Shown here one piece after another: positions 3-20,442 of a DNA stretch of 37,255 nucleotides (its first letter is position 1; every line of letters starts with the position of its first letter). Position numbers and translations under genes: made by a program. The notes below the pieces were generated by a model. It had not been told where the DNA came from and ran no database searches. It worked only from the letters and a program-made list of their open reading frames with translations. The DNA comes from Candidatus Raymondbacteria bacterium RIFOXYA2_FULL_49_16 (GTDB lineage: Bacteria; Fibrobacterota; OXYB2-FULL-49-7; XYB2-FULL-49-35): positions 1,109 through 38,363 of the forward strand of contig MFYT01000069.1 of the NCBI GenBank assembly GCA_001789205.1. The letters are read 5' to 3'.

Positions 3-3000
3 CTGCATATCCAGTCAAGCTCAACCGCCAACACCAAGGGTATTGGCCCCTGTTCCGACAACCAGGTGGCGGCGACGGACATTGACGGCGACTCCCGTCT
101 GACAAGTTGCGCCGCAGACATAGGAGCTGACGAGAACCTCGCGTTTACCGCACCCGATACCGTAGTGCGGTATATTAACACCGCCTCTGCTCCGGGTGGC
201 ACCGGCATAACAAACGCCACATCCGGCACGGACCGGGCGTATCATTCGCTTCTTGAGTGGGATGATGCGGAGGACGGAAACCTTGTTGTCAATAACCAGA
301 TTAAGGTGGCTGTTTGCGAAGGCTCGGATGTTGACGACTCCGGCGTGGTCGACCTCAACGGCTGGACAACCGATTACCAGCATTATATCGTGATAAGAAC
401 AGATTCCACGGCCGCATATGGGCAGCATGGAGGGAAATGGAACACTGGCACGTACAGGCTGGAGGCCAATGGCAGCAGCGGTGCGATGATAGTACGGACG
501 GATTACATAAAAATATCAGGTCTGCAGATACGTAATACAAATACCGGCAGTACCCCAGCAGCCCTTCTGTTGCTTGACTATGATCCGGCAAACAATTGCA
601 ACAAATACGAGATTTCGAAATGCATACTCCGTGGGAGTTGCGATCGTGGCATTTATGTGAATGACGACGATGCTAACGTATTTATTTCCAACACAATATG
701 CTATCTTGATTATGTCGGCAATACATGGCCGGTATATGCGTCTTCAGGTGATTCGATAGTGCTGTTTAACTGTTCGTTCTTGGGGACCTATGTATATGCG
801 CATGCCACCAACGTGGCGACCGCCATAGCTAAGAACACCTACGGCGAACACTGGTACAGTTACACGAAGTTTAGCGGAAACAACAACGGAACAGCCGATG
901 CAAACGCTCCAGGCACAAGCGGACAAACGTCGAAAACAGCGACGAACCAATTTGTAAATGTTACAGCCGGAAGCGAAGACCTGCATTTGAAGATAGGCGC
1001 AGCCATCATCGACCAGGGCACCAGCCTGTCGGGCGACGGCGTTTATCCGATAACCCAGGACATGGAGAGCGGCACACGCGTCGGCGGCACTTGGGACATT
1101 GGCGCGGACGAGGTATATGCGACATCGGCGGCCACGGACAATCCGTGTGCTATATATTATTCCGTGGGTACAAGCACGGCCGACTTAAAGGGCAACGCCA
1201 CTACTATTTCCATCACGGACGGCGCCGCGACCATTTCAGGCCTGACCGGAGGCGAAAACATCGGGGTTGGGGACAAAATAACCTTCAACAACCACTGGGC
1301 CGCATATATAAAAGGAAAGACGTCTGCAACGCAATGGACCGTATGCGGGCCCACGGGTCTGCGTCCGACCGGCATATCCGGATTGACCGTAAACAACATA
1401 AAACGCGCGTTCAACTCACTTTATGCAGCCATGAACGGCGCATCCCCCGGCGCGGCCAATGCTAGCCATCTGAACAGCAAGGCGCTCACCACAAACGATA
1501 CAAGGCTGTACATCGCCTGCTATGCCGACGGGGACGACGCATCCATGACAAGGGTTGATTATTCATGGACCACTGACGCAACAAGGCACATCACCATCTT
1601 CACGCCCACGAACACTTCGACCGAATGCAACACCAGCCAACGTCACAACGGCGTGGTTAACGGAGGCGGTTATACCCTCAAAAGCACTGACGCCACAACG
1701 GATGTGCATAATCTGGCCATCAATGCAAGTTATACAAAAGTTTTCGGCATAAAAACAGTCAGGACGTCCTCAAATTGGAGTGACGGATATGGCATAGGGC
1801 ATGATTATTTGACCGGAAATGGAGCATGCAGTTGTGAAGTGGCATATAACCTGTTGTACCAGGAATCAGGCGGAGCTGGGACCCTGCTTAAGTGGGACAA
1901 TCTTTCTGACGTAGATGGATATGCCTGTCACATATACGACAATATTGTTATCAGCAACTCCAGCACATTACAAAATGGCCTGAAGCTGGGTAATAACACG
2001 GGTGGTTATCAGACGACAGCGGCCCGGCAGTGCAAAATATACAACAACACCTCTTATGGCCAATTCCTAGGAGGGGCCATCCGTATGTCAATACTAAACA
2101 GCAGCGGTTCGTTGTATATGCCGCTCGTGAGAAATAATTATGCGGCAAATACCGGAACAGGTACTGACTACAATTTAACCGGCGATTATACCAATGCGCT
2201 TAGCGTATTCGCCTACAACGCCTCGGACGACGGCACTTGCGGCAGCAGCAACAGCAACACGACCATAACCGCGGCTGCCATGGATTTTACGTCCACCACG
2301 TCCGGCAGTGAAGACCTGCGCATAAAGGTATTATCAGGCGCTATAAACAGCGGCGTTGGGCCGGCCACGGACGCGAACGTAGCCGCGTCCGACCTTGACA
2401 ACGACGCCCGGTCAGGCACAACAACGGACATTGGCGCGGACAAGTTTCCGTACACGTTGAGCGCGTGCGGTTCAAGCCCGTGCAGCGTATATTACTCCGT
2501 GGGCACGAGCACGGCGGACTTTAAGGGCAGCGCCACCACTATTTCGGTTACAAACGGAACAGCGACCATTTCAGGCCTTACAGGGAGCGAAAACATAGGC
2601 GCCGGGGACATTGTGACGTTCAACACCAACTACGCGGTGTACCTGAAAAAGAAGAACACTGCAACCGAATGGGTCGTTCATGGGTCAAAGGGGCTTGTTC
2701 CAACAGGCATATCGAACGCCGTTGTCACTTCAATAAAGCGCGCGTTTAATTCTCTCAATGCGGCCATGAACGGCGCATCCCCGGGCGCGGCAAACGCCAG
2801 CCATCTGAACACCATGGCCCTTACCACAAGCGATAAAAAGCTTTTCATTGCCTGTTATGGCGACGCTAGCGACGGTTCCAGCGTCAATGTGAATACAGGC
2901 TGGACAGCGGACGCCACCCGTTACATCACCATTTTTGCCCCTTCGAACACCTCCACCGAATGCAACCAGGGCCAGCGTCACAGCGGCAAATGGAACACGG

Positions 3001-6000
3001 GCAAATACCTGCTGGTGGTGACCGCTTCTTATGCATTGAAGCTGGACGAAAGCTACACGGTCATTGACGGCCTTCAGATGAGCAACAACAATAATGATGT
3101 TTTCATTGTAGGCGCCGGTACGGGCAATTTTACGACCAAGAATTGCATAATCAAAGGCAGCGGCAGCAGCGGCAATGGAATGTGGTTCAGCACAACCGGC
3201 GGCAACAATACCTTGTATAATAATATTGTGTATGATTGTCCTGAAATTGGCGTCAGCGTTCCAGGCGACGCCACTTATAATTCGCATAAAGTGTATAATA
3301 ACACGGTCTATAACTGCAACACGGCCAACGGCAGCAACAGGTCCGGCATCATTGTCGGCGGCGCCAACACCCTGGTCAAGAACAACATCGTGATGAATAC
3401 CCACCTTGCCAGCGGGTGTTTTGATATTGTGGTCAATAATTCTGCGGCCCAATCTTATAGCGTCACTTCCGATGCTACAGGCGCGGGTACGGGTTCCCTT
3501 GCAAGCCGCACAGCTACTGCCAATGCAAGCCCAGGCATTGGCAACTGGGTGGTTTTCACCAATATCACCGGCGGCTCCGAGGATTTCCACCTTCAGAATG
3601 TTACCGAGAACGACGCGAACAATGCGGGCATTGGGCCAGGTTCTGACGGCAATGTTCCATCGACGGACATTGACGGACAAACCCGTTCGGGAAGCGCCGC
3701 GGAAATGGGAATGGACGAGAATTTGGAATACTCGGTGGGAACATGCGCGACAAGCCCATGCAGCGTTTGTTATTCGGTGGGTACAAGCACTGCGGACTTG
3801 AAAGGCAGCGCCACCACTATTTCCATCACGAACGGAACAGCGACTATTTCAGGCCTGACAGGGAGCGAAAACATAGGCGTGGGCGACATGATAACTTTTT
3901 CGACCAGCAGCGTGGCGTATATCCGCAAGAAGAATTCGGCCACCGAGTGGCTGGTGACATCGGCCAATGGCCTAAGTCCCACAGGGATTTCCTCGGCAAC
4001 GGTGAATTCCATCAAACGGACGTTCAATTCCCTGAACCTAGCCGTAACCGGGGCCAGCCCAGGCGCGGCCAATGCCGCGCACTTGAACAGCAAGGCGCTC
4101 ACAACCAACGATAAAAAGCTTTTCATTGCCTGTTATGCTGACGGCGATGACGCATCCATGACAAGAATAGATTATTCATGGACAACTGATGCTACGCGAT
4201 ACATTACGATATACGCCCCGACAAACACTTCAACCGAATGCAACACCAGCCAGCGGCATAACGGCGTGGTGAACGGCGGCGGTTACACACTCAAAAGCAC
4301 TGATGCAAGCGCGGACGTGTTTAATCTGGACATCCATGCGGATTATACAAAGGTTTTCGGCATAAAAGCCGTCAGGACATCGTCGAATTGGACTTGGGGC
4401 AGCGGAATATGCCAGTATTATTTGACTGCCGATGGCGGACGTAATTGTGAAGTGGCTTATAACCTGTTGTACCAAGAATCAGGTGGGGCTGACGGTCGCC
4501 TGATCAACTGGGCGAATATTTCAGCGACAAATGGATATGCCTGCTATATCCACGACAATATCATGGTCAGCAACTCAAGTACGTTGAATATTGGCTTAAA
4601 CATAAAGGGGGAATATCAAACGGACGCGGGCCTTCAATGCAAAGCCTACAACAATACCGTGTATGGCGCGTACGATGTGGCGGGGATAATCATAGATATT
4701 AACAATAGTAGCGGTTCTTTATATATGCCGCTTGTGAAAAACAACTATGCCGCCTGTACCGGCGCCGGCACAGATTACAACTTCGCAAATGATTATACCA
4801 ATGCGCTGAACGTCTTCGCCTACAACGCCTCGGACGACGGCACATGCGGCAGCAGCAATGGCAACATAACCATCACAGTTACAAACGCGGCATTTATCTC
4901 CACAACAGACCCTAACCAGGACTTGCACATCAAAGGGTCTTCTTCGCTGGCCGGCGCCGGCATAGGCCCCACGAGCGATGCCAATGTTTCGACAACAGAT
5001 ATTGACACCAACTCCCGTTCCGGGACCACTACGGACATAGGTGCGGACAAAACATACGGCACGCTCACGCTCTCAAACCATGCTGCAGGGCATGAAATAA
5101 ACGCTTTTACGTACAAGGGAAACGAAACCGACGCAGAGCTGTTCGGCTTTAGACTAACGCCCGGCGTGTCCAGCTACAATTTTGTGAGCCAGCTTGTGTT
5201 CTCGCTGACAAACATTGTGGGTCTTGCTGATGGTGATTGGGGTAGCGTTGAGATATGCATTGATGCCAACAACAACGGTACCGTCGAGGCCGGGGAGTCC
5301 GGCACTGTGGGCGGTTCAGGCGTTGTGAGCACTGCGGGAGGGACCATAACCTTTTCCACGGGCTTCTTTGTTTCCAGCGCCACAAACTATATACTGCGAT
5401 CTGATTTTTCCAGCTTATCGCCGGGTGACAAGGTTACGATAGCTTTGTATAACAGCGTCATCACAACCGCCAGCGCTAAAAGCGGTACGTGCGATTCAGT
5501 GACCCACTGGGAAGTGCCATGGTACGATCCCGGAAGGCCTCTTCTGAAGCTGTATACAAGCACAGGCAGCGTGAACGTGCAGAATATTGGCCCCGGTGCA
5601 ACCACAAGCAGCTATTTCTCGGTAAATAACGACTCTCTGAACCAGTTTTTTCTTATGTTCGATCCCCAGGCCTCAACTGTGGAAGGCATGTTGACATCGT
5701 TTAAGACAGCAGCTTCAGATACTGGCTCCCAGGTATCTTCCGCATACGAGCTCCTCCCCTCTGACAAAAACCATTACAACATGTTCAACATTTGGCGCAA
5801 GCAAGGTTCGAATCAATCCTGGTACGCAAATGATGTTTCGGCCATGCCAAACGGCTTCACCATTGCCGAATCAACGACAACGCGTATGAAATACAGAATA
5901 AACCAGCGCACGGTGAGTTTAAGCGGTGCTAACTTGGATGCGGTTTCCGAGATCACAGTATATCCCACCGGCCATATGTTCGTGTATGATTCGGCCTATT

Positions 6001-11230: not shown

Positions 11231-13432
11231 ATGATCGCTGTTGTCTTGCTTATCGTTTTTAGTTATTCCAGCACCTTTGGTGAAATTTATTTCCACTCAG
11301 ACTTTGAAAGAGGTGAAACCTATACGCAAAACAGGGTTGCAGCTAACCAAAACAGGATAAAACTCATGCCAAATTGTCGGGTGGAAGAATGGCCCCTGGA
11401 CGGCGGGCAGGGAATTATAGAGGGCAATTATCCGGTCTTTCTGGACACCTTTTCTTATGATTATAGAAAAGGCAATATGTTGGCAGGTGTCCGCGGTATT
11501 CAAAAAACACACGATCCCGGCGTAGATATCCGTACAGGAAATCTTGACGAGTGGTATATGCTCAAAGACATTCCGGCTGTTTTAGGCATAAAGGCGCTGG
11601 ACAATAAAACGCCGATATTCGGGCGCTATTCCGCCATGTTAAACAGCAGTGACGCTTTTTATGCCATGCTGAGTAAAGAAGTGCTTTCCCTTCCCAATAA
11701 ACTTTATTTTCGATTTTATGTCCGTTTTTCAAATGAACTTTTAAGCAGCGAAAAAATCGGCATTACTCTGTTTGCGCCGAGTTTTAATTTTTCCCAGATG
11801 CAGGTAATTAATCTGCAGAATAACAATAAAAACGAAATACCCTATCTGTCGTTAGGCATGCTTGATCCCAGGTATTATAATATCATTGCAAAAGAATCCA
11901 GAATTGAAAACAGGGTTGAAATCCGGCCAGGTGAAAATTACTCTGTGGAATATGAATTGTTTTTTGCAGACAGCGTCCATGGGATGGTCGTGCTTTCTGT
12001 AAACGGAAAGGAGCAGGTACGGGAACAGTGCGAGTATTTTCCACAGCCGGAAGCGCCGGGAAATCGTTTTTATTTCGGCAGATGGGACCGTATTAAAACA
12101 AATGGCGTTCTTTTCATTGATGAGTTCGTTTTCGCAGACACCAAGATCGGTCCAGTACCCAATACGCCTGTCATTATCTTTGCCGATAATATGTTTACAT
12201 TAAAAAATGAAAATAATGCGTTTGCCGCCCACCAGTTACAGATCAATACAACTAATTCATGGCTTATCCCTGTTTATAACAGCGGAGAAGTCGCACATCG
12301 GGACATAACCGTACCAGACGGTATTGCGCCCGATATGTCTTTTTATGCGCGTATTCGTTTAAAACATAATACCAGACAGTGGAGCCCGTGGAGCGAACCG
12401 GCCCGATTTAAATTGCCTGTTACTTTAGCCGGTGCTTCGGGGATGTCTGAAAAAGATTTGCCAACGGTAAGGAAGGCTTATTTCACCAGGATTAACAGTC
12501 AAAAACCTCTGGATGAAGTTCACAAGGGGAAATGGTACGATTTCTACGTATATCTCGGTGATCCAAAGGGTTGGTCCAATCTGGCCAATGCCGATATCTG
12601 GTTGAACGGCGATCCCACAAACAGTATCGGGAATTATGAAAACAGGGGCGGACCATTTAAGGAGGCGGAAAATTACATAATGAGTTTCTCTATTACTGGA
12701 AAAGAGCTGTGGGTAAGGCAGACTGAAAATTCCAATGCTTTTACACGCATCAATACACTATTGGGCGTTTATATTGATGACAATAATGGGGAATATGAAC
12801 AAAACAGCGGATTGGGATGGGCAAAGGCCAGAATAAAATTATCAGATTCTGCAAAAATCGGCCCCTGGATTATTCAGGGTTTTGCGGCAAATAAACAAAA
12901 GAAGCTGTCCGGTATGTATGTAAGTCCCTTTCAGGTAGTTGAAAAAAGATATAGTGAGAAGCAAAATTTATGGAAAATATTATCAATTATAATGGTATTG
13001 TTGGTTTTTTTATTAGTTATCTTAACGGCATATCTGTTTAAACGCAGGCACGCCAAAAGCGTATTAGAAAATAAACAGATAATCGCCCCGCTTGATTTAA
13101 ATTCTCCATACGGCGAAAACATTAAAAAGGCTCAGAAGTATATATTGGAGAATTACATGAAGCCCATATCCTTAAAAGATGTTGCTGCGGGTATTTTTGT
13201 GACGCCTAATTGGCTGAGTATTTTTTTCAGTAAGGGGAGCGGAAAAACCGTGACTAGCTACATAAACGAAGTGAGGATTAAACACGCAAAAAAACTGTTG
13301 GAAGAAACAAAACTGAGTATTTCAGAAATTTCATTTAAGGTGGGTTTTAATAATTTCAATCATTTTATTAATACATTCAGAAAAGCTGAAAACATCGCGC
13401 CGGGTAAATATAGAAAGAAGTTTATGGATTAA
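11231..13432 (+). CDS. Membrane-anchored AraC-family transcriptional regulator with extracytoplasmic sensor
   Basis: 733 aa. A short hydrophobic N-terminal segment (residues 2-17) acts as signal or anchor. Residues ~20-310 look like a jelly-roll/LamG-type carbohydrate-recognition fold (SDFERGETY ... FYFGRWDR ... GVLFIDEFVFAD). Residues ~315-395 resemble an Ig/FnIII-like domain, and a third beta domain runs to ~565. One clear transmembrane helix lies at ~580-604, followed by the basic KRRH. Residues ~630-733 are a complete AraC/XylS DNA-binding domain with two helix-turn-helices (SLKDVAAGIFVTPNWLSIFF, then SISEISFKVGFNNFNHFINT, and the C-terminal APGKYRKK). No kinase or receiver domain is present, so it is a one-component transmembrane regulator. 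An in-frame TGA at 11222 leaves only the ATG at 11231. There is no good Shine-Dalgarno sequence, and the n-region lacks a basic residue. It lies just upstream of the operon it probably controls. Confidence 0.88.
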   Translation: MIAVVLLIVFSYSSTFGEIYFHSDFERGETYTQNRVAANQNRIKLMPNCRVEEWPLDGGQGIIEGNYPVFLDTFSYDYRKGNMLAGVRGIQKTHDPGVDIRTGNLDEWYMLKDIPAVLGIKALDNKTPIFGRYSAMLNSSDAFYAMLSKEVLSLPNKLYFRFYVRFSNELLSSEKIGITLFAPSFNFSQMQVINLQNNNKNEIPYLSLGMLDPRYYNIIAKESRIENRVEIRPGENYSVEYELFFADSVHGMVVLSVNGKEQVREQCEYFPQPEAPGNRFYFGRWDRIKTNGVLFIDEFVFADTKIGPVPNTPVIIFADNMFTLKNENNAFAAHQLQINTTNSWLIPVYNSGEVAHRDITVPDGIAPDMSFYARIRLKHNTRQWSPWSEPARFKLPVTLAGASGMSEKDLPTVRKAYFTRINSQKPLDEVHKGKWYDFYVYLGDPKGWSNLANADIWLNGDPTNSIGNYENRGGPFKEAENYIMSFSITGKELWVRQTENSNAFTRINTLLGVYIDDNNGEYEQNSGLGWAKARIKLSDSAKIGPWIIQGFAANKQKKLSGMYVSPFQVVEKRYSEKQNLWKILSIIMVLLVFLLVILTAYLFKRRHAKSVLENKQIIAPLDLNSPYGENIKKAQKYILENYMKPISLKDVAAGIFVTPNWLSIFFSKGSGKTVTSYINEVRIKHAKKLLEETKLSISEISFKVGFNNFNHFINTFRKAENIAPGKYRKKFMD

Positions 13433-13493
13433 TCAATAATAGTTCAATTAAAATCAATAATAGTAGTTAAATAATCAATTTCCGTGTTAGATT
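13431..13493. promoter_or_regulatory. Candidate AraC-type operator: three 21-bp-phased direct repeats
   Basis: AATCAAT occurs at 13431, 13452 and 13473, exactly 21 bp apart each time. The first two copies extend identically to AATCAATAATAGT, and all three keep GT at unit positions 12-13. A 21-bp spacing puts the sites on one face of the helix and equals the half-site spacing of AraC-family operators. The third unit ends immediately upstream of where the -35 box of a promoter with TATACT (13516-13521) would fall, and that -35 (13493-13498) is poor, as expected for an activated promoter. The first unit overlaps the stop codon of the regulator gene. Confidence 0.55.
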
Positions 13494-13551
13494 TTTCCTA
13501 AATTGCAGCATATATTATACTTATAAATCATAACGTTAGCCTTTGGATGAA

Positions 13552-13556
13552 GGAGG
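13552..13556 (+). promoter_or_regulatory. Ribosome binding site that sets the start at 13562
   Basis: GGAGG lies five nt upstream of the ATG at 13562 and inside the coding sequence if the ATG at 13547 were used. Starting at 13562 also gives a clean signal peptide (MKYVLLIWVLLSLS). Confidence 0.8.
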
Positions 13557-13561
13557 AAAAT

Positions 13562-16500
13562 ATGAAATATGTGTTACTGATATGGGTATTACTCTCACTC
13601 TCCAATGGAGACACAATTCCAGCAATCAGAGAATCGGCTAGAGATATTCCGGTTGCCTATACCGTAGACATTGTTGTGGGTGGCGGCAACCTGGCAGGCG
13701 TGGCTGCCGCGATCACTGCCGCCAACCTCGGCGCCGAGGTCCTTATTATCCATTCGCGCCCAAGTTTCAGCCACGAGGTCTCGGATAAGTCACGTTATTG
13801 GCTGGAACCGAACGAGGTCCCCCAAACCGGTCTTGAACAGGATTTGCTGGGTACGCGTGCCAGTGGCGCCGGTTACTATTTTATTACACCCGGCCCGTAT
13901 AAAAAAAGGATTGAAGAAGCCTTGGTACAGACGGGAGTACGGTTTCTGTTCTGGACCACAGCAGTGGGCGTGCTTGAAGACGGTTCCGGGAATATCTCTG
14001 GAGTCGTGATCGTCAACAAGGCGGGCAGGCAGGTAGTAAAAGCAAAAGTGGTGATCGATGCAACATCCATGGCCGGCATCGCGCAGATGGCGGGAGCTGA
14101 AATGACAGCCTGGCCTGGCGGCAATCAAACCGTATCATGCACCAAAATGATCCCTGGAAGCGATGCTGAAGGGACCCCAATCGTCAACTATTCCGCCTCC
14201 ACATCAGACTATCTGCGCGAATACTCGATGCAGTTCCCTTTTACTGATGGATCCTGGACGGAACGATGCGCGGCGGAGTATCAGATTCGGCGAACTTTCC
14301 CGCGCCAGGATGCGGCCTGGATGAGCCACATGATCCATTTAAACGAGCCAAACCATATCATCGCGGAGGCGACTGATAGCTCTCCGACATGGCCCGGCGC
14401 AGCCAATCTGAGTTTGGACTGCTGCAGGCCCCGGGGGCTCTCACGCATATATGTGGCAAGCGGCGCTTCGGCGGTTTCCCGCGCCAATGCGGCTAAACTT
14501 ATCAGGCCGCTTGAACTTATCGCACTTGGCAAGCGTATCGGCGCACAGGCAAAGACAGATGCTGACGGACTTTCCCACCCCTCTTCAGTAATAGTTAAAA
14601 CGAACACCTCTACTGTCGGATATCAGCCGGGCCTGGATGTATCAGAGGCTCTGGATGGCCACCGGCCCTACCATATCTATCCGACAGTGCGCCAGGAATC
14701 AAATGATCTGCCGATATGGGGCGCGTATGATGTAATAGTAGTTGGGGGCGGCTCTGCGGGCGCTCCGGCGGCGATCGGAGCGGCGAGAAAAGGGGCCAAG
14801 GTACTGGTGATCGAGGCACTCGGCATACTCGGCGGCGTCGGCACCAATGGGATCGGACATTTCTATCAGGGATACACGCACGGATTTGCCATGGAATATC
14901 CGGTTGCCTGGTGGAAATCGGTGCATAAAGCTGAATGGCTCTTTGATGAAATCGCCAAACATAGCGGTGAGATCTGGTTCAATACCCTTGCCTGCGGTAC
15001 GGTTAAAAATGGAAACCGGGTATGCGGCGTGGTTGTTGCAACTCCCATGGGACGAGGAGCCGTGACCGGAACCGTGATTATTGACGCTACCGGTGACGGC
15101 GACATTTCATACTGGGCCGGAGCAGAGGTCATGCACCTGAACAATGGCGATCTTGCCATTCAAGAGGCCAGCTACATGGGCGATGATGCTGCTCCGGCAG
15201 GCATGAGAAATGAATGGGGGTCAATATTTTTTGATCCGGCGGACATCGAGAGTATGACAGATTTCTATTATCTCTCCAGAAAATACGGCGCGCACAAAGA
15301 CAGGTTTGATTTTTACGGACTGATCGGAAATCGGGAGACCAGGCTTGTGGTAGGCGATTATGTGGTAACCGCCCTGGACCAGAAGATCGGGCGCACCTAT
15401 CATGATATGATAAATATCGCCAGTGCGGACTTCGACATGCATGGATACCCTGATGGCCCGACTTGTATGGCGGGCCTCTTTCCAAATGGCATCAACTATG
15501 TACCCTATCGCGCTTTATTGCCGCGCGGGCTAAGGGGAATACTGGTCATAGGCCGGTGTAAGTCAATGATCCATGACGCCATGCCGATTACCCGCATGCA
15601 GGCTGATTTAACTAATGAAGGTTATGCGGCAGGCTATATCGCAGCAAAGTGTGTTGCGGACGGGGTTGATTTACGCGCTGTGGATATCGGCGCGGTTCAG
15701 GACCACCTGGCGGTTATCGGAAATATGACTGCAACGCACAGGGCGACTGTGTGCATAGAGATGGCGGAAGTCAATGACTCCGAACTGCAGAGCGCTGCAG
15801 AAAATCCCATTAATGAAAACCTGGAGAAGATCCTACGCGCACCGGCACGGGCCCTTCCCTATCTGCACGCCTCATTTGCCCAGACCCCGACCAAAGACAA
15901 GGCGCAGGCACTCTGTCTTATCGGCGACGCTGCTGGTGTGGAATACCTGGCCAACTGGTTTGATGGTGAGTCTCTTGGTACCGGCGTCTCTTATCTGGAC
16001 TTAATCCCCTTTCCGCCTATCCCTGCAATTAATGCCACTATCTGGGCGCTGGGCCAGTCCAGAGATGTTAGAGCCGTACCTGCGCTTGCACAAAAACTCG
16101 ATGATGTAGCGTTCCTCAACAGGGGGTCAACGGACTTTACCCATGTACGCAGCCTTGTTTTAGCGCTTGGCAAAATAGGCGATCCCTCCGGCACACCTGC
16201 GCTCAAACGGTTTCTGGAACGTAGTAATATAAACGGAAATGTCATGGGGCCTATGGATTGGCAGGCATCGTCAAAGTACGAGTTAGTTGAGTCAATTGTT
16301 GAGCTTCTTGGAGCTGCAGCATTATATAAGTGCGGTGATATAGGAAATATAGCTAGAGATAGACTTATCGATTACCGCGATAATGACTGGCGCGGCGTGT
16401 GCGTGCGCTTTGCCGGGTTTATTTTAAGCGGCGATTCGACCGTCTCTCCAGTTAAAACACAATATGATCGGCCAAAAACGCCTGAAGCTGCAGTTGCCGT

Positions 16501-16765
16501 CTATCCCAATCCTTTTAATCCGACTATTACTATCTCTATTGCTACCCATAAACACATTCCGAACAATTCTTTCCTGGTTGCAGTTTATACCCTGAGCGGT
16601 AGAAGAGTCCAGGTATTGGATGTGCAAAGGCTGCCCATACGCAGTAATGGCGCCCGGAATATGGTAGCATACTGGAACGGTGAGGGTATGGCAAGCGGCA
16701 TGTATTTTATAAAAATTAAAGTTGGTTTACGGACCTATACCAAACGCGTTATTCTAGTCAGATAA
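13562..16765 (+). CDS. Exported tandem FAD-dependent oxidoreductase with HEAT-like repeats and sorting tail
   Basis: 1067 aa from the ATG at 13562, chosen because of GGAGG at 13552-13556. A Sec-type signal peptide is followed by two separate FAD_oxidored-type Rossmann segments. The first is at residues ~36-65 (VVGGGNLAGVAAAI ... GAEVLII), the second at ~390-425 (VIVVGGGSAGAPAAIGAA ... ILGGVGTNG). The second copy looks complete, with IDATGDGDISYWAGAE and a GRCKSMIHDAMPITRMQ segment. Residues ~787-890 resemble HEAT/PBS-lyase repeats (ALGQSRDVRAVPALAQKL, then ALGKIGDPSGTPALKRFL). Residues ~977-1067 are an NPFNP sorting tail. The family oxidises diverse substrates and the one used here is unknown; carbohydrate neighbours suggest a sugar or glycoside. 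It is followed after one base by the symporter gene. Redox flavoproteins with this export tail are unusual. Confidence 0.85.
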   Translation: MKYVLLIWVLLSLSNGDTIPAIRESARDIPVAYTVDIVVGGGNLAGVAAAITAANLGAEVLIIHSRPSFSHEVSDKSRYWLEPNEVPQTGLEQDLLGTRASGAGYYFITPGPYKKRIEEALVQTGVRFLFWTTAVGVLEDGSGNISGVVIVNKAGRQVVKAKVVIDATSMAGIAQMAGAEMTAWPGGNQTVSCTKMIPGSDAEGTPIVNYSASTSDYLREYSMQFPFTDGSWTERCAAEYQIRRTFPRQDAAWMSHMIHLNEPNHIIAEATDSSPTWPGAANLSLDCCRPRGLSRIYVASGASAVSRANAAKLIRPLELIALGKRIGAQAKTDADGLSHPSSVIVKTNTSTVGYQPGLDVSEALDGHRPYHIYPTVRQESNDLPIWGAYDVIVVGGGSAGAPAAIGAARKGAKVLVIEALGILGGVGTNGIGHFYQGYTHGFAMEYPVAWWKSVHKAEWLFDEIAKHSGEIWFNTLACGTVKNGNRVCGVVVATPMGRGAVTGTVIIDATGDGDISYWAGAEVMHLNNGDLAIQEASYMGDDAAPAGMRNEWGSIFFDPADIESMTDFYYLSRKYGAHKDRFDFYGLIGNRETRLVVGDYVVTALDQKIGRTYHDMINIASADFDMHGYPDGPTCMAGLFPNGINYVPYRALLPRGLRGILVIGRCKSMIHDAMPITRMQADLTNEGYAAGYIAAKCVADGVDLRAVDIGAVQDHLAVIGNMTATHRATVCIEMAEVNDSELQSAAENPINENLEKILRAPARALPYLHASFAQTPTKDKAQALCLIGDAAGVEYLANWFDGESLGTGVSYLDLIPFPPIPAINATIWALGQSRDVRAVPALAQKLDDVAFLNRGSTDFTHVRSLVLALGKIGDPSGTPALKRFLERSNINGNVMGPMDWQASSKYELVESIVELLGAAALYKCGDIGNIARDRLIDYRDNDWRGVCVRFAGFILSGDSTVSPVKTQYDRPKTPEAAVAVYPNPFNPTITISIATHKHIPNNSFLVAVYTLSGRRVQVLDVQRLPIRSNGARNMVAYWNGEGMASGMYFIKIKVGLRTYTKRVILVR

Positions 16766-16766
16766 A

Positions 16767-18461
16767 ATGAATTTTCAGTTACAGGCCATTGATGCAGTGG
16801 TCATTATTGTTTTCCTGATTGCTACCATTGTCGTCGGGCTCTGGTATTCACGCAAGGCAGGTACAAACAAGGAGGAATTCTTTCTTGCTGGCCGGACCCT
16901 TACTTGGCCGCTGATTGGCGCCTCACTCTTCGCTACGAACATCTCCACTCAGCAGTTCGTGGGGCAGGGTGGGTTGGCCTATTCTATTGGTATCGGCGCC
17001 TGTTTCTTTCAGTTGCTGGGGGCCGTTGCCACCATGCTCCTTGGTCTGGTTTTCGCACCCAGGTTCCTGAGAATGCGGCTTTATACCCTTCCCCAGTTCA
17101 TGGAAGAGCGATTTAGTCCCGGTATACGTGCTTTCCTTTCCGGATTTTCTATTGTCACTATGGCCATCGCCGGTCTAAGCGGTGTACTTTATAGTGGTGC
17201 TATTATTATGCAGCGGGTGTTTAACCTGGAATCCACCTTTTCGCTCTACATAAGTGTTGTTGTCCTTGCAGTTACTGCCGCTCTTTATACGCTGGCAGGC
17301 GGGCTCAAATCCGTGGTGATTACGGATTTTATCCAGAACGCCGTGCTTTTGCTGGGCGGACTGGCCATATTAATCTTTGCGCTGATTTATGCAAGCCACA
17401 TGCCCGACGGATTGGCCGGCATGTGGTATCTCAAAGAGGTTGCTGCTGACGGCAGAATATTCAGTAAATGGAGCCTTTTTCGGCCCTATGATCACGCGAT
17501 TATCCCATGGTTCGGGTTGATAACCGGCGGACTGATTGTGGCCATAAACGGCCATTGCACAAGTCAGGATTATCTTCAGCGCTGTCTGGGCGCAAAGAAT
17601 ATATATCACGCCTCCATGGGATCATTATTCGCCAGCCTTCTTAAAGTGGTTGCGGTTTTTCTTATCGGGGTTCCCGGCGTAATTGCTGCTTATATTTTCC
17701 AGGGCCAAAACGTGGTACCGGACCAGGCTTTTACCGCGCTTATTATAAAAATCCTTCCCGCTGGAATAACGGGTCTGGTGCTTGCCGCATTAATCGCCTC
17801 GATTATGTCCTCGGTGGATTCCGTGCTGGCTGCGTGTTCGAGCCTGTACACAGTGGATTTTTACCTGAAAAAACATAAAAACATTGATGAAAAAAAGTAT
17901 GTCAGTGTTGGCAGAATCACCATGGTGGTAGTCATGCTTATAGGGATACTCTGGATTCCCGTAATATCTTCATTCAGCCACCTCTACGTATATTTCCAGC
18001 AATTCATTTCTTATATCGCACCTCCCATATTCACTGTTTATCTTTTCGGGCTTTTCTACAAACGGGCCAACCATGTGGGCGCCATGGCCACTCTTATCCT
18101 GGGAACCGCCATGGGGGCGTTTGTATTCTTCCTTACGTCCATTAAGAACATGGCTGTAATTACGTTCGCTGAAGTCGCGTTTATGCGCAATCTGCTTATG
18201 GGGATCCACAATTTCTTTCCTGCATGGCTTACGGGTATGAATTTTCTCTACGGCTGTTTTTACCATTTTCTTTTTTGCGTTGCCGCAATGTTAACATTCA
18301 GCCACTTAACACCTCCTCCACCCATTGAAAAACAGGAAGCGGCCAAACGGAACGACAAGGGAGGGTTTGATAATGAAACGCCTTATGCCAGTAGGAATGT
18401 AAAAATTATGACGGCAGCATTTATCGTCGCGCTGATTGCTGTATTTATCGCATTTTCATAA
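16767..18461 (+). CDS. Sodium/solute symporter (SSS family), SGLT-like
   Basis: 564 aa integral membrane protein with about 13-14 predicted helices. Family signatures visible by eye include the N-terminal AIDAVVIIVFLIATIVVGLWYS, then FFLAGRTLTWPLIGASLFATNIS (residues ~38-60), LYTLAGGLKSVVITDFIQ (~175) and LAALIASIMSSVDSVLAACSSLYTVDFY (~330-360). The last includes the Ser-rich TM8 region that contributes to the sodium site. These match the sugar/sialate branch of SSS. The ATG lies one base after the oxidoreductase stop with no Shine-Dalgarno of its own, which implies translational coupling. The likely role is sodium-driven uptake of a sugar or sugar derivative produced or sensed by the neighbouring genes; substrate is inferred only from context. 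Confidence 0.92.
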   Translation: MNFQLQAIDAVVIIVFLIATIVVGLWYSRKAGTNKEEFFLAGRTLTWPLIGASLFATNISTQQFVGQGGLAYSIGIGACFFQLLGAVATMLLGLVFAPRFLRMRLYTLPQFMEERFSPGIRAFLSGFSIVTMAIAGLSGVLYSGAIIMQRVFNLESTFSLYISVVVLAVTAALYTLAGGLKSVVITDFIQNAVLLLGGLAILIFALIYASHMPDGLAGMWYLKEVAADGRIFSKWSLFRPYDHAIIPWFGLITGGLIVAINGHCTSQDYLQRCLGAKNIYHASMGSLFASLLKVVAVFLIGVPGVIAAYIFQGQNVVPDQAFTALIIKILPAGITGLVLAALIASIMSSVDSVLAACSSLYTVDFYLKKHKNIDEKKYVSVGRITMVVVMLIGILWIPVISSFSHLYVYFQQFISYIAPPIFTVYLFGLFYKRANHVGAMATLILGTAMGAFVFFLTSIKNMAVITFAEVAFMRNLLMGIHNFFPAWLTGMNFLYGCFYHFLFCVAAMLTFSHLTPPPPIEKQEAAKRNDKGGFDNETPYASRNVKIMTAAFIVALIAVFIAFS

Positions 18462-18510: not shown

Positions 18511-20403
18511 TCAAACGTAGGTGTTGAATCGCTCATTGGCGCCCCAATTATTTCCCGCTGACGCGAAATCACAGAAAAGAACGGTGGAGCCATCGCTGTA
18601 TTTGATGGTCCACGACCGATAGATCCCATCAGGCGGCTTGCAAGGCATGACTGTGACTATGTTGGAACAGGACATGGGAGCAAAGACATCTTTTTTCTCA
18701 AGCCGTTCGTCCCTTGAAAGGGCAAAGGGCCCTCTAAAGAGCACGGCCCCGCTACGGTGAGGAAGAGCGTCTTCTTTTCGGAGGGTGGTATTCTCCACAG
18801 GATCAATACTGCCGCTTTCCTCCATAATCAGGCCCATTTTACTCCACTTGTCTTCATGCCATGAAATGATATCTTGATCCGGCCTGTTTCTGTCCGCTTC
18901 GAATAATTCCCTGCGGATGCTGAGATCGAATGTGATCCTTACGCGGTCATTGTGCTGCCACGCCCTCGTTATTTTCTGAAAGCCCGCCCCGTTGCAGATG
19001 ACGGGGCTTTCCTCGTTTATCCCGTATGACATTGTTTTGCTCCAGTAAGGAATCCGCAGGAACAGGGAAAACTCCGCTTTACAGATATGCGTAAAAGTTA
19101 TGTCAACCGAGTCGGAATCATAGAGGTTGCCCTTAAGTGATAATGATATATTTTTTCCGGATAGCAGGCAAACATGAGCATCCAATTCATTATATAGGCC
19201 AATATAAATTCCGGAAGGGCTCTGCAGCACTGCGGACTCCGCCGCCTGAAAGTACCCGCGGGGCAGATTGTCCACACAGCACTGATGGCGCCGGAGAAAG
19301 TGGTTGTGAGCGGGGATATGCTCGTGGGTAAGCCGGAGCCTTCTTAATGCCCAGCTGCAGTCTCTGTTTATGCCCGAGAGTAAAGCGTTGTAAAGGCTTT
19401 TTTCAATCTCGTCAAGATAAGAGATGTCTCCGGTAAGGCACAGGAGCTTGTGTGAAAGGCGGTTCCAGTACACTGCATCACAGATCTCGGACACTGTATT
19501 TTTCAAAAATCGGGAGCCCACGAATTTATCATTGAAGCCTACGCTGCCCACGGGGGAGCGTTCCCATAAAACAAGCCGGGAGTGTATATTTTCTGCCGCG
19601 GTAAGATATTCCCGTGTACCAACGGCGCAGTACAGTTCAAGCAGTCCTTCTACACAGGAAATCAGTTCATATCCCTTTGCCCATTCCTCGGGATTGTTTC
19701 CCCATAGGTGTACGGGCCGGTTTTTCAAGCCGTTCTCGAGAATATTAGGGAGCCCTCCCGGATGGCGGGACCATTGATCGACAATATACAGTCCATAGTC
19801 CAGGAACCTTTTTTTTTCACAGGCATTGAATAATCTTATTATTGGACCGAGTATGGAGGTGCTGGGCATTCCGCAAAAATATCCCGTCTCTATTATTTCT
19901 TTTTTTCCCGGACCAACTTCAGAAATGAGATGGTCGGTGAATTTCACCGCGGCATCCAGTATTTTCTCGTCCTTAAGCAGTTCGTATGCTTCCACAAGGG
20001 CCCAAAGCGTGTACTTGCGGCACCAGATATTCCAGGAAGGCCCTGTAAACCCAGGATCATGATAAGTACCTATGTAACCGTTGCTTTCCTGAGTCGACAG
20101 GAGTCCCTCTACGGCCCGGGCAATGAACAGTTCAAGGCTTTCATCTTTATAGTACCTGCATGCCGCAATGGCGGAAAGCATCCACTTGCCCCAGAATTCA
20201 CCGCGCCAGACTCCCCTGCCCGGTATGTCCCGGTCGTCTATTCTCCGCCTGAAGGCCTCTTCTGTTTCCGGGTAGATCACTTTTAACGCGAATTCTGAAA
20301 TAATACGCTTTTCGGCTGTCCGGTCAAGGATATCCCCCAGACGGCCTTTCAGCTGTAACGAGCCGATGGGCAGTGGTGTGAGTACGTTCTTTATCTTATA
20401 CAT
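18511..20403 (-). CDS. GH127-type glycoside hydrolase (beta-L-arabinofuranosidase-like, DUF1680)
   Basis: 630 aa starting at the ATG complementary to 20401-20403. A longer TTG start at 20442 is unlikely because those bases form the probable -35 box. The protein has the DUF1680 (alpha/alpha)6-barrel pattern: LGDILDRTAEKRIIS near the start, WNIWCRKYTLWALVEAYE, then SEICDAVYWN and HQCCVDNLPRG. The zinc/nucleophile set known from HypBA1 (Glu, Cys two residues later, and a Cys-Cys pair) is present as E306, C308, C375 and C376. I see no Glu in the 10-20 residues before E306, where the acid/base Glu is expected; Asp292 is the closest acidic residue. There is no signal peptide, so it acts on imported oligosaccharides in the cytoplasm. 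It is convergent with the symporter, which could deliver its substrate. Confidence 0.85.
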   Translation of the reverse strand: MYKIKNVLTPLPIGSLQLKGRLGDILDRTAEKRIISEFALKVIYPETEEAFRRRIDDRDIPGRGVWRGEFWGKWMLSAIAACRYYKDESLELFIARAVEGLLSTQESNGYIGTYHDPGFTGPSWNIWCRKYTLWALVEAYELLKDEKILDAAVKFTDHLISEVGPGKKEIIETGYFCGMPSTSILGPIIRLFNACEKKRFLDYGLYIVDQWSRHPGGLPNILENGLKNRPVHLWGNNPEEWAKGYELISCVEGLLELYCAVGTREYLTAAENIHSRLVLWERSPVGSVGFNDKFVGSRFLKNTVSEICDAVYWNRLSHKLLCLTGDISYLDEIEKSLYNALLSGINRDCSWALRRLRLTHEHIPAHNHFLRRHQCCVDNLPRGYFQAAESAVLQSPSGIYIGLYNELDAHVCLLSGKNISLSLKGNLYDSDSVDITFTHICKAEFSLFLRIPYWSKTMSYGINEESPVICNGAGFQKITRAWQHNDRVRITFDLSIRRELFEADRNRPDQDIISWHEDKWSKMGLIMEESGSIDPVENTTLRKEDALPHRSGAVLFRGPFALSRDERLEKKDVFAPMSCSNIVTVMPCKPPDGIYRSWTIKYSDGSTVLFCDFASAGNNWGANERFNTYV

Positions 20404-20442
20404 TGTTATGAAACAATATAATATTTTTAAACGGAACCTCAA
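20402..20442 (-). promoter_or_regulatory. Promoter and overlapping palindrome at the GH127 gene start
   Basis: On the minus strand TTGAGG (20442-20437) and TATATT (20420-20415) are 16 bp apart, placing the predicted transcript start about five nt before the ATG at 20403, so nearly leaderless. The palindrome ATTGTT-ATGA-AACAAT at 20402-20417 covers part of the -10 box and the start codon, the position of a repressor operator. Confidence 0.4.

Follow-up and report, generated by a model that had tools for sequence, protein, structure and literature searches.

A 21-bp-phased triple repeat behind a membrane-anchored AraC-type regulator gene is a probable operator of the adjacent oxidoreductase–symporter operon

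In a 37,255-nucleotide stretch of the genome of Candidatus Raymondbacteria bacterium RIFOXYA2_FULL_49_16 (hereafter, the window), three direct repeats lie between the gene for a membrane-anchored AraC-type regulator and two co-oriented genes for a secreted oxidoreductase and a symporter. We conclude that these repeats are most probably the operator half-sites of the regulator encoded upstream, which would activate the oxidoreductase–symporter operon. The evidence comes from the sequence and rarity of the repeats, their position relative to a putative promoter, and a matching 21-bp signal behind sister genes in the same genome.

The regulator gene (11231..13432, forward strand) encodes a protein of 733 aa, recognized from its open reading frame, an HTH_18 match, hydropathy and PDB matches. 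HTH_18 was matched at residues 653–729 (E=1.4e-17), and PDB entries of AraC DNA-binding domains, 2k9s among them, matched residues 631–730. The hydropathy profile has maxima at residues 1 and 583, giving a signal sequence or first transmembrane (TM) segment at the N terminus and a second TM segment at about residues 583–602. The protein is thus divided into a periplasmic sensor of about 560 aa and a cytoplasmic AraC DNA-binding domain (631–730). Scans with Pfam and NCBIfam returned HTH families alone above or near cut-off, with neither kinase nor receiver domains. With a TM segment that separates an extracytoplasmic sensor from the HTH, and with kinase and receiver both absent, the protein falls among membrane-bound one-component AraC regulators rather than the HTCS class, in which histidine kinase and receiver are combined in one protein. 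The C-terminal double HTH, and direct repeats about 21 bp apart by a promoter of weak consensus, are features of the AraC/XylS type. We also built a sensor profile from 15 regulators, that of the window and 14 sisters. Its N terminus matched Cip1 (3zyp, E=4.4e-4) and, weakly, a glucuronan lyase (2zzj, E=0.076), and further on it gave weak matches to fibronectin-like receptor domains. These matches point to a jelly-roll carbohydrate-binding domain at the N terminus of the sensor, which we treat as a lead.

Each repeat is a candidate 13-bp half-site on the forward strand. Half-sites 1 (13431..13443) and 2 (13452..13464) are both AATCAATAATAGT, confirming the 13-bp identity reported in an earlier note on this DNA, and half-site 3 (13473..13485) is AATCAATTTCCGT, with 9/13 positions kept. 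The positions common to all three units are 1–7 and 12–13. Two further readings of the note were also correct: the heptamer AATCAAT starts at 13431, 13452 and 13473, exact to the base, and GT occupies positions 12–13 of every copy. Half-site 1 overlaps the regulator stop codon, TAA (13430–13432). Among the 8-bp spacers that follow each unit, almost no position agrees. A recent tandem duplication was ruled out, because the cores agree and the spacers do not. Conserved cores and drifted spacers at a constant phase form the pattern predicted for selected binding sites.

The array occupies 63 bp, its half-site is very AT-rich, and the surrounding region (13430–13546) has 23% GC. A chance or mutational repeat, arising by local slippage in AT-rich DNA, would draw support from this composition, from the small number of base pairs involved and from the lack of ortholog support for conservation of the array. 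In 20,000 dinucleotide-preserving shuffles of 13430–13546, however, a 7-mer triplet never appeared at spacing 21 (0/20,000), appeared once at spacings of 20–22 (1/20,000) and 15 times at any spacing of 7–60 (15/20,000); an exact 13-mer pair was found in 47/20,000. Within 894 kb of the genome, the window triplet is the sole exact heptamer triplet that is phased at 21 bp and uses three or more letter types; counting every spacing of 7–60, there are just five such triplets, this one included. Across the whole 5.43-Mb genome, AATCAAT-N14-AATCAAT is unique to this site. These results bear out the earlier judgement that the repeats are hard to dismiss as chance. The 13/13 identity of the cores next to unconserved spacers and the class-wide enrichment at lag 21, described below, also argue against a chance or slippage origin, which we regard as extremely improbable.

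Downstream of the array, a putative −10 element, TATACT (13516..13521, forward strand), lies 43 bp past the start of half-site 3 and matches the consensus weakly; TATATT (13511–13516, forward strand) is an alternative consensus match. No TTGACA-like −35 element was recognizable in the window at the expected place. The claim that the third repeat ends where the −35 region begins holds approximately: TATACT with a 17-bp spacer puts the −35 hexamer at 13493–13498, 7 bp past the 13-bp repeat, and TATATT as the −10 element puts it at 13488–13493. On sequence grounds, this geometry is that of a candidate AraC-type activator site at −35. A Shine–Dalgarno-like AAGGAGG (13550..13556, forward strand) precedes the ATG at 13562, the first codon of a signal peptide. 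For the oxidoreductase gene, the start listed at 13547 probably lies 15 bp upstream of the true one.

The first predicted target gene (13562..16765, forward strand) encodes a secreted FAD-dependent oxidoreductase (FAD_oxidored, E=1.2e-70) that also has HEAT-like repeats and a T9SS-type sorting tail (Por_Secre_tail, 4.6e-07). Directly behind it, the second predicted target (16767..18461, forward strand) encodes a sodium:solute symporter (SSF, E=2.2e-64). Profile matches identify the product of a neighbouring gene on the minus strand (18511–20442) as a GH127 protein resembling aceric-acid hydrolases, suggesting that the cluster handles pectic (rhamnogalacturonan II) sugars. Both the GH127 gene and that of the T9SS-tailed oxidoreductase are thus polysaccharide-degradation or secreted-enzyme genes adjacent to the regulator.

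Since such arrays lie between two co-oriented genes and the first copy overlaps a stop codon, they might instead act in repression, through looping or blocking, or in terminating transcripts that run on out of the regulator gene; AraC itself is able to repress by looping. Neither a terminator-like hairpin nor an Rfam match was found, however, and the last half-site begins about 38–43 bp upstream of −10-like hexamers, an activator position, at three loci (43 bp in the window, 38 bp at L039 and 43 bp at L060). If one counts a degenerate fourth half-site, assigned by eye, the distance is about 38 bp at L046 (second gene) and L049 as well; at the other sister loci the distances are less regular. 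A role in repression or termination instead of activation is therefore very improbable in our assessment.

The genome contains about 52 AraC-type HTH matches, and among the AraC neighbourhoods fetched, 24 proteins have a TM segment 110–200 residues before the C terminus. Genes were called as longest open frames, and membrane segments were taken from the hydropathy average. Among 23 membrane AraC genes with a callable neighbour, 22 are followed by a co-oriented gene, versus 4/20 cytosolic ones (p=5e-7), and the median gap between regulator and next gene is 158 bp. The position between an AraC gene and its likely co-oriented target operon, which the earlier note described for the repeats, is thus the usual one in this class. 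Most of the next genes have secreted products that bear type IX sorting tails, and at the sister loci these products include GH30-like, esterase, GDSL, metallophosphoesterase and Sde182-like enzymes.

We then took the 150-bp segment that follows each of the 24 membrane AraC stop codons and scored its self-similarity at all lags from 8 to 60. A single outstanding peak was observed at lags 19–23, with its maximum at 21 (z 6.75–7.1 for the 24 gaps), accompanied by a weaker harmonic at lag 42 (z 2.8–2.9). When the window was left out, the maximum remained at lag 21 (z=6.0). The sister genes were gathered with knowledge of the window; lag 21 had been named beforehand in the earlier note, and the peak emerged among all lags tested. 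No lag-21 peak was detected upstream of the same 24 genes (z −0.5), at cytosolic AraC genes (upstream 1.7, downstream 0.6) or in 42 co-directional gaps distant from any AraC gene (z −0.8). Lags 19–22 alone distinguished membrane-AraC gaps from distant gaps (Mann–Whitney p=4.4e-6; p of at least 0.12 in the other bands). Co-directional gaps near AraC genes, but not directly behind them, gave an intermediate lag-21 z of 3.8, and some of these may hold additional sites belonging to these regulators.

Triple arrays with spacings of 18–23 were present at p<=0.01 in 8/24 gaps versus 1/42 controls and at p<=0.05 in 12/24 versus 2/42, and none of the 24 gaps had a significant one at the wrong spacings of 25–30 and 11–16. 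Together with the class-wide peak, these counts strongly support the earlier note's reading of the repeats as AraC-family half-sites. The significant arrays (p<=0.01) are those of the window (L038), L041, L045, L046 (second gene), L049, L050, L052 and L054; their lags vary from 18 to 22, and about half of the sister gaps are without a significant array. When a third copy was sought beside the best pair, offset 21 was again the best. At L046 (16269–16474), a gene for a T9SS-tailed esterase-like protein is preceded by an array in which AAAATGCC, about 21 bp beyond half-site 3, is probably a fourth copy; L060 may hold up to five half-sites.

The half-site sequence is specific to each locus or to a small group of related regulators. 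The half-site of the window is not shared by the sister gaps, even that of the closest paralogue in the genome (p=0.77), whose product is 36% identical to the window regulator over its full length and 41% in the HTH. This paralogue has its own, different, weak 21/21 array (p=0.043). L052, L054 and L046 (second gene) have the most similar DNA-binding domains among the array loci (56–79% identity), and their arrays have the core AAAAnGmCGAA or one close to it, with spacings of 19 and 21–22 and differing spacers. Over 18 loci, HTH identity correlated with array similarity (rho 0.22, Mantel p=0.006); the correlation is modest, and common descent could partly lie behind it. At L053, the array behind the sister regulator gene (ACCGTTTTT...AAAAACCGCTTTTTCATTCATTT) appears again, its spacer changed, ahead of a gene further along in that cluster (2437–2636, minus strand, and 5428–5580; 20/20 at best), apparently as a second operator of one regulator. 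The locus-specific arrays, the HTH correlation and the L053 recurrence would all fit reading of each array by the adjacent regulator.

An operator read by another factor, either a different AraC-type protein (roughly 50 are encoded besides this one) or a global binder of AT-rich DNA, would be in keeping with the number of AraC-type HTH matches in the genome and the AT-richness of the half-site. The lag-21 signal, however, goes with membrane-AraC genes and is missing near cytosolic ones, and the array sequences vary by locus, tracking the adjacent HTH. In addition, no second copy of the double 13-mer was found elsewhere in the genome, even with 3 mismatches, so that the search revealed neither the regulon of a distant factor nor a wider regulon of the window regulator. 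We consider reading by another factor improbable.

No ortholog of the window regulator was found in 40, 167 (phylum) or 391 related genomes, and no full-length ortholog in one scan of a genome-contig database; sister regulator L060 likewise had none among 294 relatives. The genome analyzed here is the sole member of its family among those searched. AraC proteins with TM segments from other families of the phylum (L002, L004 and L007; about 390 aa) were considered for comparison, but their next genes are unrelated or distant and inspection revealed no comparable array. In the most sampled genus of the phylum, Fib_succ_major domains number about 86–126 per genome, which makes Fibrobacterota its probable identity.

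From the arrangement of sensor, membrane segment and phased repeats, we infer the following course for ligand sensing, binding, subunit number and activation. The periplasmic domains (jelly-roll, carbohydrate-lyase-like and Ig/FnIII-like) probably sense a polysaccharide or its fragments, and the signal would pass through the single membrane helix to the cytoplasmic AraC domains. Several subunits would then dock their AraC domains next to one another along a single face of the DNA, each on its own half-site, with the half-sites two helical turns (21 bp) apart. The promoter-proximal half-site would immediately precede the −35 position, at which the promoter has no element of its own, so that the bound regulator would recruit RNA polymerase to the oxidoreductase–symporter operon (class II activation).

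A further proposal concerns why the array should follow its own regulator gene so closely, right after the stop codon. The array might be placed there because transertion of the nascent sensor pulls that DNA to the membrane, although we think this rather unlikely. If true, it would be a local solution to the problem of how a tethered factor finds its promoter, with at least three half-sites binding an oligomer in the membrane, and the roughly two dozen parallel cassettes would represent one general device with locus-specific half-sites.

The proposed activation by the membrane-anchored regulator through the array has a counterpart in E. coli AraC, whose araI1–araI2 direct-repeat half-sites are 21 bp apart, with the proximal one at −35. 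Both systems have a double-HTH domain and 21-bp direct-repeat half-sites, whereas AraC is soluble, binds arabinose and has two half-sites at the promoter. ToxR, TcpP and CadC use a different DNA-binding fold, a winged helix in the classic cases. They resemble the window regulator as one-component regulators that act on DNA from the membrane; such transmembrane regulators are widespread, and their access to promoters is poorly understood (PMC10269533).

Operators of Bacteroides HTCS proteins are direct repeats with a mean distance of 21 bp centre to centre (PMC3878776). HTCS proteins likewise combine a periplasmic sensor, a membrane helix and a C-terminal AraC domain, have many paralogues per genome and polysaccharide-use neighbours, and read similar motifs with similar HTHs (PMC3878776). 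They differ in carrying the histidine kinase and receiver that the window protein lacks, and their published motifs have two sites (PMC3878776), compared with three or more here, in an array directly behind the regulator's stop codon. According to the part of the Saccharophagus degradans study available to us, 16/31 AraC proteins of that bacterium are membrane-bound, in a lineage-specific expansion, and their genes lie beside those for cellulases, leading to the proposal that they sense extracellular polysaccharides (PMC2386152). The expansion of membrane AraC proteins beside secreted polysaccharide-degrading enzymes is common to both genomes. Most of the S. degradans proteins listed in that part have 6–7 TM segments, and no operators are described there (PMC2386152), whereas those described here have two hydrophobic segments and a large periplasmic sensor, as well as T9SS-tailed targets and mapped arrays.

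Membrane AraC regulators are already known; less expected is a three-copy array behind the stop codon across a large family in one genome. The literature searched contains hardly any description of operators for membrane-bound one-component AraC regulators. The roughly two dozen regulator–gap–enzyme cassettes of this genome, many with readable half-sites, suffice to begin decoding the relation between recognition helix and half-site. They could also help to predict polysaccharide-sensing regulons in a poorly studied lineage and show whether a membrane-anchored factor needs gene adjacency.

Two minor observations concern the secreted proteins of this genome. T9SS-type sorting-tail matches number well over 100, in a lineage that is apparently Fibrobacterota, not Bacteroidota. 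In addition, two otherwise different secreted-protein genes, near 6645 of L040 (forward strand) and near 16159 of L052 (minus strand), share GTCAGTACACAAGCG at their 5′ ends, perhaps as a recombined signal-peptide start.
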